35,583 nt of DNA from assembly GCA_945862505.1 (NCBI GenBank), contig CAMAYJ010000022.1, forward strand, positions 1-35,583, read 5' to 3'. Both the position numbers and the translations under genes were made by a program. This document shows positions 18,758 through 23,099 of the stretch, one piece after another (position 1 is the stretch's first letter; every line of letters starts with the position of its first letter). The notes under the pieces were generated by a model that saw only the letters and a list, made by a program, of their open reading frames with translations, was not told where the DNA came from and made no database searches. The stretch is from Bifidobacterium breve. Lineage in GTDB: Bacteria > Actinomycetota > Acidimicrobiia > Acidimicrobiales > Acidimicrobilacustridaceae.

Positions 18758-19939
18758 TCAGGCCGGTGCTGGGCCGATCACAACGCAACCGTTATGACCG
18801 CCAAAACCGAAACTGTTTGAAAGCACCGGAGCGGGAGTCCACTCACGAGCCTCGCCCACGACGATGTCGATGGGGGCCATATCGGGATCGACATTCGCGT
18901 AGCCAGCCGTCGGAGGGATCGCACCCTTCTGCATGCCGAGCACGATGCCCACTGCTTCGAGTGAGCCAGCGCCACCAAGAGCATGACCAGTGACACCCTT
19001 GAACGATGTGACTGCCGGCGGAGTTGCACCGAAGACCTCAGCGATTGCAGCAGCCTCAGCCGCGTCATTGAGCGGTGTTGATGTGCCGTGCGCGTTGACG
19101 TAGGTGACATCTGCCGGAACGAGTCCAGCATCGGCGATGGCAGCGCGCATGCAGTTGATGGCACCAACGCCACCAGGAGAAGGGGCAGTGATGTGATAGG
19201 CGTCGGCGTTTGATGCCGCACCCATGACTTCAGCGAGGATTGTTGCGCCACGAGCAATGGCCGATTCCATTTCCTCGAGTACAAGGACACCAGAACCTTC
19301 GGCCAGCACGAAGCCGTTGCGGTCGCGGTCGAAGGGTCGAGACATGTTGTCGGAAGACATCGCTGTCATGTTGGTGAAGCCAGCGATACAGGTCGGGGTC
19401 ATTACCGATTCAGACGAACCGGTGACCATGGCATCGCACAGACCCGACATGACGAGTCGGTAGGCATTGCCAATTGACTGTGTGCCGGCAGCGCAGGCGG
19501 TACAGGTGTTCTCGCATGGGCCCTGCCAGCCATATTTCATGGAGATCGCAGCTGATGCGGCGTTAGCCATGAGCATGGGGACCATGAACGGGCTGACTCG
19601 ACGTGCGCCCTTGTGCTCGTTGACAAGCACCTGTTCTTCAAGGGTTGTTAATCCACCAATACCGGTGCCGATCCACACACCCTTGCGAGTGGGATCGCCA
19701 CCGACGTCGCCGGCCATGGTCATTGCTTCATCGGCTGCTGCAAGTGCGAACTGCGCGAAGCGGTCGGTGCGACGCGCTTCTTTCGGGTTGGTGAAGTAGG
19801 CCTCTGGATCGAAGTTTTCAATACGGCGAAGCCCTTCGGGCGGTGCCGACAACAATCCCTGCCAATAGGCCTCGGTGCCGATGCCGCATGGGCTAACGAC
19901 GCCGACGCCTGTAATCGCTACCCGACGCTTGGTGCTCAC
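18758..19939 (-). CDS. fabF: 3-oxoacyl-ACP synthase II (KAS II)
   Basis: The elongating condensing enzyme. The 393-aa thiolase-fold protein has the catalytic Cys149 in ENTCTACAAGTQSIGNAYRL, the first His in VNAHGTSTPLND and the second in GVTGHALGGAGSLEA; the C-terminal SNSFGFGGHNGCVVI is typical. It starts at GTG 19939 in a GTGA overlap with acpP and is the last gene of the fabD-H-G-acpP-F operon. Confidence 0.96.
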   Translation of the reverse strand: MSTKRRVAITGVGVVSPCGIGTEAYWQGLLSAPPEGLRRIENFDPEAYFTNPKEARRTDRFAQFALAAADEAMTMAGDVGGDPTRKGVWIGTGIGGLTTLEEQVLVNEHKGARRVSPFMVPMLMANAASAAISMKYGWQGPCENTCTACAAGTQSIGNAYRLVMSGLCDAMVTGSSESVMTPTCIAGFTNMTAMSSDNMSRPFDRDRNGFVLAEGSGVLVLEEMESAIARGATILAEVMGAASNADAYHITAPSPGGVGAINCMRAAIADAGLVPADVTYVNAHGTSTPLNDAAEAAAIAEVFGATPPAVTSFKGVTGHALGGAGSLEAVGIVLGMQKGAIPPTAGYANVDPDMAPIDIVVGEAREWTPAPVLSNSFGFGGHNGCVVIGPAPA

Positions 19940-20169
19940 CGCTTCGACATCACCAGTTCGTAGGCTTCGCCAACAGTCGTGATGTTCTCGAGTTCAGACT
20001 CGTCGACGGTGACGTCGAACTCTTCTTCAAGCTTCATAACGAGCTCGACGAGGTCGAGGCTGTCGGCATCGAGGTCTTCGGAGAACTTGGCTTCCATCGT
20101 CACCTGATCGGCTGAGACGGCGAGGATCTCAACAGCACAGGCCTTGAACTTTTCGAAATCGTCACTCAT
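19936..20169 (-). CDS. acpP: Acyl carrier protein
   Basis: A 77-aa acidic four-helix carrier. The phosphopantetheine attachment Ser37 is in DLDADSLDLVELVMKLEEEF, the DSL motif. ATG 20169 is chosen over an upstream start since AAGGAG lies four bases before it and the product then has standard ACP length. Between fabG and fabF, the usual order. Confidence 0.95.
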   Translation of the reverse strand: MSDDFEKFKACAVEILAVSADQVTMEAKFSEDLDADSLDLVELVMKLEEEFDVTVDESELENITTVGEAYELVMSKR

Positions 20170-20237
20170 GGGGCTCCTTGGTATTCGGTGCGACAAACCT
20201 AGTCGGGGGTCGCAGTGGTTTTGGTGCTGCTTGGGAC

Positions 20238-20948
20238 TTAGCCGCCCATGCCGAGACCGCCATCGACGGGTAGGACTGCACCCGTGATGTAGCCGGCCTC
20301 GTCAGAAGCGAGGAAGGAAACGGCGGCGGCGATTTCATCGGGTTGACCCATTCGGCCAAGGGGTACGGCGCCGGTGATGGACTCACGCATTGCGTCATCA
20401 ACGGCGGCGAACATGTCAGTAGCGATGGGGCCAGGGGCAACAACATTCACCGTGACATTGCGCGAGGCGAATTCGCGGGCCAGTGAACGTGCGAGCCCGA
20501 CGAGCCCTGCCTTGGACGCGGCGTAGTTGGCTTGACCGGCTTGGCCGATTGAGCCGACCACGGAGCCGACAAAGATGATTCGGCCCCAGCGGGCGCGCAT
20601 CATTTTCGGGACGGCTCTCCGGGCGGCTCTAAACCCGCCAACAAGATTGGCGTCGAGGACGTCAGAGAAATCTTCGTCGGTCATGCGCAAGACGAGTTTG
20701 TCAATGGTCATGCCCGCGTTCGACACGAGAATTTCGACAGACCCGAGTTTCTCTTCAATGTCAGTGAACGCCGCTTCGACCTGTTCGGTGTTGGTGACGT
20801 CGCACTTCACGCAATAAAGATCGCCGGCATCGGCTGGTGCTTCGCCGCGGTAGGTGATTGCGACCTTGTTGCCGGCAGCGGCGAAGGCTTTTGCGCACGC
20901 AAGGCCAATACCGCGATTGCCGCCAGTTACGAGAACGACTCGACTCAT
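20238..20948 (-). CDS. fabG: 3-oxoacyl-ACP reductase
   Basis: A 236-aa short-chain dehydrogenase using NADPH. The nucleotide motif TGGNRGIG is at residues 8-15, NAGM at 77-80, and the catalytic Ser129, Tyr142 and Lys146 lie in VGSVVGSIGQ and ANYAASKAG. The C-terminal GYITGAVLPVDGGLGMGG is typical of FabG. ATG 20948 follows a clear GGAGGG Shine-Dalgarno and overlaps the fabH stop (ATGA). The frame is open well upstream inside fabH, but that extension has no family match. Confidence 0.95.
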   Translation of the reverse strand: MSRVVLVTGGNRGIGLACAKAFAAAGNKVAITYRGEAPADAGDLYCVKCDVTNTEQVEAAFTDIEEKLGSVEILVSNAGMTIDKLVLRMTDEDFSDVLDANLVGGFRAARRAVPKMMRARWGRIIFVGSVVGSIGQAGQANYAASKAGLVGLARSLAREFASRNVTVNVVAPGPIATDMFAAVDDAMRESITGAVPLGRMGQPDEIAAAVSFLASDEAGYITGAVLPVDGGLGMGG

Positions 20949-21907
20949 TTGTTTCCCTCCGGAAGGTGGCCCGTCCAACGAATGACGGCACTGGCCCAAC
21001 TCATGCCGGCGCCGAATCCAACAAGGAGAACGTTGTCGTCGCGTTTCACGCGTCCGTTTTCGAGCGCATCGACTAATGCAAGAGGGATTGAAGCCGATGA
21101 AGTGTTGCCCGTTCGGTGGAGAACCATAGCGACGCGATCCATTGGCATCCCGAGTTTCGAACAAGCGGTTTCGATAATGCGAATATTTGCTTGATGGGGG
21201 ACGACCAAGGCAATGTCGTCAGCAGTGAGATCCGCCGAAGCTAGAGAAATCTTCGCGGAGTCGACCATGACCGTGACCGCTTTGCGGAACACTTCTTTGC
21301 CGACCATTGACATGTAGCCACCGATGGGCGCGTCAAGGAGTTTGCGGGCAGTTCCGTCCGAGCCGAGGTCGAACGAGACGAGTTGTCCTTCGCCCTCGAC
21401 TGCTTCGAGCACAACTGCGCCAGCCCCATTACCAAAAAGAATCGCGGTGTTGCGGTCGTCTTGGTCGGTCAGTCGCGCCAGCGTCTCGGAGCCGATGAGT
21501 AGAACTCGCTTGAGGCCCATGGCGATGAGTCCGTGTGCCTGCACCAGCCCGTAAACGAAACCTGAGCACGCGGCATTGACGTCGCAGGCGCCGCCGCTGA
21601 TTCCCAGTTCTTCTTGGACCTGCGAGGCGGTGGAAGGAATCTGATAATCGGGTGTGGTTGTCGCAAGAAGGATGAAGTCGATGTCGGCGCCGGTGAGGCC
21701 CGCCATTTCGAGAGCGTTGCGACCTGCTTCGACGGCTAGTCCTGCCGTGGTTCCGCCATGGCGCCGTTCACGGATTCCGGTTCGCTCGGTGATCCATTCG
21801 TCGGTGGTGTCGAGGCGCGCTTCGAAATCGGCGTTCGTGACAACGAGGTCAGGAAGCGCCGTTCCCCATCCGATGATTGTTGCGCCGCTCTGGGTCGAAG
21901 TAGTCAT
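20945..21907 (-). CDS. fabH: 3-oxoacyl-ACP synthase III (KAS III)
   Basis: Starts fatty-acid chains from acyl-CoA and malonyl-ACP. The 320-aa protein has the catalytic Cys114 in DVNAACSGFVYGL, His in VVPHQANIRII and Asn in RTGNTSSASIPLAL. TTDEWITERTGIRERR is also diagnostic. ATG 21907 (MTTSTQSG) follows GAGGA and starts 22 bases after the fabD stop; an ATG-proximal extension would overlap fabD. Confidence 0.95.
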   Translation of the reverse strand: MTTSTQSGATIIGWGTALPDLVVTNADFEARLDTTDEWITERTGIRERRHGGTTAGLAVEAGRNALEMAGLTGADIDFILLATTTPDYQIPSTASQVQEELGISGGACDVNAACSGFVYGLVQAHGLIAMGLKRVLLIGSETLARLTDQDDRNTAILFGNGAGAVVLEAVEGEGQLVSFDLGSDGTARKLLDAPIGGYMSMVGKEVFRKAVTVMVDSAKISLASADLTADDIALVVPHQANIRIIETACSKLGMPMDRVAMVLHRTGNTSSASIPLALVDALENGRVKRDDNVLLVGFGAGMSWASAVIRWTGHLPEGNK

Positions 21908-21929: not shown

Positions 21930-23099
21930 TCACGCGGTGCGCAACCAAGCAATGGGTTGACTCGTTGTCACTCGCTCGCCTTCAACGGCGAGTACGCCCA
22001 CAAGGATGCCCGCAAATGGCGAACGAACCTCGTGATCTCCGACCATGCCCAGCACGGTGCCGGGCGTGAGTTCGAAACCTGGCGCAAGTTCGGTGGCAGG
22101 AGTGAACACGCCGGCGGCTGGACTTACGACCATGCGTTCAGTGGCGAAGAGATGCTCGCCCTCGTGCACCGCGATGCTTTCCGAAGGTGACGCGAGGGCA
22201 GTGAGGAGTTTGTCGAGATCGTCAGGCGTTGAGACCGAAAGAGTGGTGGTGCCCGTGACGGTGCGTTTGGCCATTCCGGTGAGGACGTTTCCGGGTCCAA
22301 GCTCGACAAAGACCGTGGCCCCGTTGTCGCCCAAGTTGTGCAAAATCTGGCGCCAGCGAACAGGGCTGCACAACTGTGCGTTTAGGAGGTCAGTCCACTC
22401 AGCACCGGTATGCGCGCGTGCATCGACATTTGCATAGACGGGGAGATCGGCATTGCGGAGGTCGGCTGATTCAATTGCGCTGCGCAGGCGGTCGCGAGCT
22501 GGGGCCATAAACGGCGTATGGAACGCCCCGCTCACGGCCATCGGCATGACTTTCTTTGCGCCGAGTTCTTTGGCGATTTCCGATGCCCGAGCAATCGCAT
22601 CGGGATCGCCGGCGATAACAACCTGACCGGGAGCGTTGTAGTTGGCGACCCAGACATCGCCGTCGATCCGAGCGCAGGCGGCCTCGACATCGTCGTCGTC
22701 AAGACCCAGAACTGCAGCCATCGTTCCGACGCGCGCGGTGGTGGCCTCGAGCATGGCCGCGCCGCGTTCGGCGACAAGCGTGAGTCCTTCGTCAAACGCG
22801 AGTGCGCCTGAAGCAACGAGAGCGGTGTACTCACCAAGGCTGTGTCCGGCCGTAGCTGCTGGTTCGACGCCAAGACGTTCAACGGCATCGAGAACGATCA
22901 AGCTTGTGAGGAATGTCGACAGCTGGGCATTGTCGGTTCGAGTGAGTTCCTCGGCTTCGGTGTGCAAAAGGAGATGTTCGAGATCGCGGCCAAGGACACT
23001 CGACGCCTCGGCAACCAATTCCCATGACGGGTGGTCTCGCCACGCGTCTCCCATGCCGGGCTTCTGGGATCCCTGGCCGGGGAAAGTGAAGACGATCAT
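21930..23099 (-). CDS. fabD: Malonyl-CoA:ACP transacylase with C-terminal biotinyl/lipoyl-like domain
   Basis: Loads malonyl groups on ACP. Residues 1 to about 300 are a normal FabD: FTFPGQGSQKPGMG, the catalytic Ser87 in GHSLGEYTAL, the catalytic His in SGAFHTPFM, and ELGPGNVLTGMAKR. The protein is 389 aa, about 80 longer than usual. Residues 323-389 form two half-repeats (SPAAGVFTP and RSPFAGILVGVLAVEG, then VTTSQPIAWL), like a biotinyl/lipoyl domain. The hairpin that would hold the modified Lys reads MVGDHEV, with no Lys. So the domain is probably unmodified, perhaps a docking module (inference). First gene of the fab operon. Confidence 0.92.
   Translation of the reverse strand: MIVFTFPGQGSQKPGMGDAWRDHPSWELVAEASSVLGRDLEHLLLHTEAEELTRTDNAQLSTFLTSLIVLDAVERLGVEPAATAGHSLGEYTALVASGALAFDEGLTLVAERGAAMLEATTARVGTMAAVLGLDDDDVEAACARIDGDVWVANYNAPGQVVIAGDPDAIARASEIAKELGAKKVMPMAVSGAFHTPFMAPARDRLRSAIESADLRNADLPVYANVDARAHTGAEWTDLLNAQLCSPVRWRQILHNLGDNGATVFVELGPGNVLTGMAKRTVTGTTTLSVSTPDDLDKLLTALASPSESIAVHEGEHLFATERMVVSPAAGVFTPATELAPGFELTPGTVLGMVGDHEVRSPFAGILVGVLAVEGERVTTSQPIAWLRTA

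Follow-up and report, generated by a model that had tools for sequence, protein, structure and literature searches.

A predicted lysine-less biotinyl-like domain attached to FabD keeps company with one acyl-CoA carboxylase β subunit

The stretch of DNA analysed here (the window, 35,583 nt) carries a compact fabD–fabH–fabG–acpP–fabF cluster that runs from position 23099 down to 18758 (Table 1). The next gene after fabD, fabH, starts 22 nt past the fabD stop, and the true start of acpP is probably an internal ATG at 20169. No accD gene follows fabF in the cluster of the window genome (G000), which measures 2.3 Mb, is 99.6% complete and encodes only one FabD. Acidimicrobiia and Microthrixaceae MAGs are the closest named records.

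Table 1. Features of the fabD locus and of the domains of its product.
Feature	FabD residues	Positions	Strand	Basis and remarks
fabD	1–389	21930..23099	minus	ORF, ATG start, 389 aa
FabD core	1–303	22191..23099	minus	TIGR00128, PF00698, AlphaFold2 pLDDT >90
Flexible linker	304–319	22143..22190	minus	Low pLDDT; conservation; contains conserved Gly314-Glu315
Lysine-less biotinyl-like (barrel-sandwich hybrid) domain X	320–388	21936..22142	minus	AlphaFold2, Foldseek, profile against PDB, hhalign
Hairpin GDHE	354–357	22029..22040	minus	Lacks lysine; the EAMKM hairpin of BCCP is four residues longer
fabH		20945..21907	minus	ORF list, NF006829/TIGR00747; ATG at 21907 is the start chosen in the analysis
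fabG		20238..20948	minus	ORF list; start chosen in the analysis; 4 nt overlap with the fabH stop
acpP (acyl carrier protein)		19936..20196	minus	ORF list; matches acpP loci of relatives
fabF		18758..19939	minus	ORF list; NF005589 above cut-off; final gene of the cluster

Residues 1–290 of the fabD product correspond to an ordinary, canonical malonyl-CoA:ACP transacylase (FabD) with the GHSLGE and FHTPF motifs intact. The protein passes the FabD equivalog TIGR00128 (285.6 bits against a cut-off of 260.9, residues 1–281) and matches Pfam Acyl_transf_1 (PF00698) over residues 3–282. Transacylase activity on malonyl-CoA and ACP is predicted from the GHSLG and FHTPF motifs. In contrast to canonical FabD, the window protein has about 80 additional C-terminal residues that hold a second domain, referred to below as X. 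The first-pass annotation had correctly placed residues 323–389 at positions 22133..21930 and had given about 310 residues as the usual length of FabD. The survey of FabD lengths that it proposed agrees with this figure: unfused relatives within the class have 291–312 residues, while fused proteins have at least 389 and mostly 389–419.

The fold of X was predicted with AlphaFold2 for residues 320–389 alone, using an alignment of 80 relatives (A1) that also served to build a profile. The model contains six β-strands with a pLDDT of about 97. In a Foldseek search against the PDB, biotin carboxyl carrier proteins (BCCPs) rank first, with the BCCP from P. horikoshii (PDB entry 5gua) at a TM score by target of 0.84 and 1.4 Å, followed in second place by Escherichia coli AccB (PDB entry 1bdo; TM 0.73 by target). 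These two proteins are also the nearest to X in sequence profile, the A1 profile matching P. horikoshii BCCP with an E-value of 5e-8 and the biotinyl domain of E. coli AccB with 6.6e-5. In hhalign, BCCP domains taken from carboxylase α subunits of this class align to X with an E-value of 2.3e-7 and a probability of 93.5%. The X domain of the window alone scores below the gathering threshold of Pfam Biotin_lipoyl (PF00364; E = 0.0019, 18.5 bits against 22.1), and a match to this family is seen in the X domains of 50 of the 80 relatives, at best with 6e-6. Computation thus shows X to have the predicted fold of a BCCP, as had been proposed from the window alone, and a structure unlike the biotinyl fold is excluded by the A1 profile, the model and the Foldseek ranking. 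The two half-repeats that had been put forward at the same time (VVSPAAGVF and VRSPFAGIL) are visible, but the self-match of the single sequence is not significant (274 of 2000 shuffles do equally well), so that the fold assignment rests on profile and structure. In the model of the full-length protein both domains are confidently predicted, with a pTM of 0.76 and a pLDDT below 50 for residues 307–315 of the linker, a combination that fits a flexible tether.

A weak match to YqeB of the selenium-dependent molybdenum hydroxylase system (TIGR03309) is found for 75 of the 80 X domains, the best with an E-value of 2e-8; in the window it spans positions 21933–22202, far under the cut-off. YqeB may itself contain a barrel-sandwich domain. 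We read this match as a common fold and not as a shared function.

The hairpin that carries the biotinylated lysine in a BCCP is altered in X. The GDHE noted earlier in place of the lysine motif is indeed found at residues 354–357. None of the 126 fused sequences has a lysine at the hairpin tip, and in one variant (GKVGDMDI) a lysine is located on strand 4, off the tip. Compared with LEAMKMENEI in BCCP, the fused form (VGDHEV) is shortened by four residues; standalone forms of X have a hairpin of full length, for example VEGPGSSTPV, and likewise contain no lysine in the equivalent biotin motif. The BCCP domain of the carboxylase α subunit in the window genome retains VLEAMKMENN, hence the organism does possess a biotinylation motif, but not in X.

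Purifying selection on X is as strong as that on the FabD core: against 12 close relatives, dN/dS is 0.02–0.07 for X and 0.02–0.05 for the core. Gly330, Gly347, Gly364 and Pro382 are invariant, and Gly314, Glu315, Glu321, Arg322, Phe362, Glu375, Arg376, Gln381, Trp385 and Leu386 are kept in more than 90% of sequences (the linker residues Gly314 and Glu315 in 122 and 121 of 126, respectively). Conservation within X is lowest in the thumb loop and below average in the hairpin; the N-terminal lead, the GER turn and the C-terminal strand rank with the best conserved elements. In the known topology of BCCP these latter elements sit at the far end from the biotin hairpin, and this is probably where X has its best conserved face, near the termini. 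In this respect, as in the missing lysine and EAMKM hairpin, X differs from BCCP. The extension is present and conserved in relatives, and the alternative of an absent and disordered extension is excluded.

In the class, 121 of 296 genomes contain a match to A1 at 1e-6; the weakest matches include a few ordinary lipoyl or biotin domains (L217, L218). Across most of the order X forms one protein with FabD, and the majority of families beyond the core of the order encode it as a standalone ORF of about 90 residues exactly between fabD and fabH. The fused and standalone forms are closely related (hhalign E-value 1.6e-35). The fusion is also seen in family f28 and, beyond the class, in families f68, f85, f99 and f102; X is present in other classes of the phylum (L182–L189, L193, L194, L198, L199), there too as a separate ORF between fabD and fabH. 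At two loci (L111, L112) fabD and a separate X ORF are in frame and split by a single stop with the X start immediately after it (TGA ATG), a near-fusion. On a tree of FabD cores the fused or separate state has changed five times, by fusion or by splitting, and a single clade of all fused FabDs is rejected by the AU test (p = 2.3e-11). Recurrent fusion or separation of one and the same pair is classically taken to indicate that the two are functionally associated.

Some lineages are without X, and large insertions or divergent copies are seen at L115 and L130. Where X is absent, the spacing between fabD and fabH is 2–19 nt (L140, L141, L147, L148) or 180–190 nt (L138, L139), or the cluster contains no fabH (L136, L137). 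The latter two loci (family f4, g13/g21) have the order fabD–fabG–acpP–fabF with a short FabD on a long branch and with neither X nor the carboxylase subunit CT2 described below; they possibly represent cluster replacement. The near-complete genomes of family f8 (G087, G095, G173, G187, G227, G289) contain no FabD match, X or CT2, and their FAS-II cluster seems to have been lost or replaced. In families f33 and f30 (L213/L254, L214) a divergent X, likewise without the lysine, stands alone outside the fab cluster next to apparent nusB/efp and pyrimidine genes, and in family f65 (L197/L256:7442–7669) an X-like domain lies near an apparent aminotransferase and sulfotransferase.

A scan for carboxylase genes identified acyl-CoA carboxylase β subunits near X, the identity of two of which was confirmed. 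Three β subunits are encoded in the window genome, the second of which, CT2, is AccD6-like. It has 474 residues and matches Pfam Carboxyl_trans only from position 67, being N-terminally shortened relative to that family (L224:1492–2913, G000 C41). Its gene is located outside the fab cluster and adjoins a LysR-type regulator and an apparent citrate synthase gene. In eleven standalone-X loci of the class (L259–L266, L270, L271, L273) the order is fabD–X–fabH–fabG–acpP–fabF–CT2, and L272 has the same arrangement without fabH. X is directly followed by CT2 at L255 (G162) and directly precedes another β-subunit gene at L246, in both cases with no fab genes. The order X–fabH–fabF–CT1 is found at L247–L253, and at L258 a fused fabD–X is present with CT1 after fabF.

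A β subunit counted as CT2 on the basis of its bit score, which is generally above 400 (about 310–405 for the universal CT1), or of its place within the fab cluster; the calls for G009, G040, G056, G068, G110, G145 and G197 rely on position, partial length or best match. Of the 99 genomes that have X, 88 contain CT2 as defined in this way, against two of the 61 that lack X. In the first set of genomes these numbers are 51/53 and 0/27, and in 80 further genomes searched afterwards 37/46 and 2/34. Both X-less genomes with CT2 (L267, L268) have contigs that are broken inside the fab cluster. Fisher's test gives p = 9e-30 by genome, inflated by relatedness, and p = 9e-9 by family, both values ignoring the tree. 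G107 and the families f13, f24, f25, f28, f30 and f33 have X but no recognisable CT2. The shared history of one gene cluster could account for much of the co-occurrence. Physical linkage cannot explain all of it, because most fused lineages retain CT2 although it is unlinked to the fab cluster, at distances of 130–594 kb in the single-contig genomes G002, G014 and G153.

Two further roles relative to the carboxylase were considered and rejected. X does not accompany a heteromeric enzyme with free BCCP, as TIGR00531 gives no match above cut-off in 80 genomes and nearly all of its matches lie in frames of about 420 residues or longer. Nor does it replace the ACC ∊ subunit, since no complementary pattern is seen. 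The α subunit of the window genome carries its own fused BCCP, and a separate pseudo-carrier is therefore not needed for catalysis.

We tentatively favour a reading, which may quite possibly be correct, in which X acts as a pseudo-BCCP without a catalytic role, either docking FabD to an acyl-CoA carboxylase dedicated to FAS-II or tuning that enzyme. X would be a biotin-carrier-like module that has lost its biotinylation site and now takes part in docking or assembly along the fatty-acid supply line. It may bind a component of the CT2-containing carboxylase through the face near its termini. In the fused form FabD would then be flexibly tethered to its source of malonyl-CoA, an arrangement that would help malonyl-CoA to be passed on to ACP locally. 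Alternatively, the tether may allow the carboxylase to be assembled or tuned to FAS-II demand, as plant BADC does for the plastid enzyme. The more specific proposal, that X physically couples the CT2 carboxylase to FabD within one complex in which malonyl-CoA is handed over or its supply is tuned, as a separate subunit or a FabD fusion depending on the lineage, is possible but doubtful. The first-pass annotation had suggested docking of acetyl-CoA carboxylase parts, or of ACP, near the malonyl loader. The co-occurrence with CT2, within the same cluster in unfused lineages, speaks for docking of the carboxylase; the persistence of X without CT2 in six families, and a conserved face that appears to be opposite the hairpin, speak against it.

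That same persistence in six families would be expected if X acted on FabD or FAS-II only, as a structural module or one that docks ACP or FabH, with CT2 being inherited and lost together with the whole cluster. The tightest genetic linkage of X is to fabD, and the flexible linker would suit an arm that catches ACP or another partner. We nevertheless consider this rather unlikely, as most fused lineages keep CT2 far from the fab cluster and X lies beside a carboxyltransferase gene without any fab gene at L255 and L246. The anatomy of X and its closest fold, that of BCCP, would also fit an inhibitor or conditional regulator that competes with the true BCCP domain and lowers malonyl-CoA output, in the manner proposed for plant BADC (PMC11926652). 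The hairpin and thumb, with which a genuine BCCP meets its enzymes, are however the most variable parts of X, which makes simple mimicry of BCCP unlikely; the BCCP of the window genome is covalently fused to biotin carboxylase; and whether BADC acts as an inhibitor is itself a matter of dispute (PMC11926652). Such a role is thus improbable. That X is a functionless, decayed remnant of a BCCP is barely credible: the absent lysine and the lineages with no X or with divergent copies or large insertions agree with decay, but the low dN/dS, on which we reject this explanation, the near-invariant residues across many families and the maintenance of X as a separate ORF in many of them do not.

Plant BADC (biotin attachment domain-containing) proteins lack the AMKL motif and are 25–30% identical to BCCP; the roles ascribed to them in the plastid carboxylase are those of an inhibitor and of a glue for its assembly (PMC11926652). 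X resembles them as a BCCP-related biotinyl-type domain with no biotinylation motif, non-catalytic and linked to fatty-acid supply (PMC11926652). It differs in being bacterial, in being fused to FabD or encoded beside it and in the shortened hairpin of the fused form. X is a BCCP-related domain without the AMK motif, as in BADC, but the carboxylases of its hosts have BCCP fused to biotin carboxylase instead of the free BCCP of a heteromeric enzyme (TIGR00531, 80 genomes). We do not class X as a BADC because the type of host carboxylase differs and the tie to the carboxylase is one of genome association.

In the mycobacterial FAS-II operon accD6 is the last gene, and we know of no X beside fabD there. 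The operon is similar to the present clusters in that an acyl-CoA carboxylase β gene closes the FAS-II cluster, whereas in the present clusters CT2 is accompanied by X. Upstream of accD6 in the mycobacterial operon lies kasB (PMC4014462).

The open-access literature on FabD with a biotinyl domain, on FabD of Acidimicrobiia and on carboxylase–FabD channelling yielded no description of this domain organisation, which appears to be undescribed there; databases of the InterPro type may list it automatically. In the textbook picture of type II fatty-acid synthesis, FabD and acetyl-CoA carboxylase are two soluble enzymes that work separately. The near-constant company of X and CT2 suggests an unreported link between malonyl-CoA production and malonyl loading. 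With its attachment to FabD and its genomic tie to a single carboxyltransferase, X is a testable candidate for connecting the supply of malonyl-CoA to its use and, spread over many actinobacterial families, a possible bacterial parallel to the plant BADC proteins.
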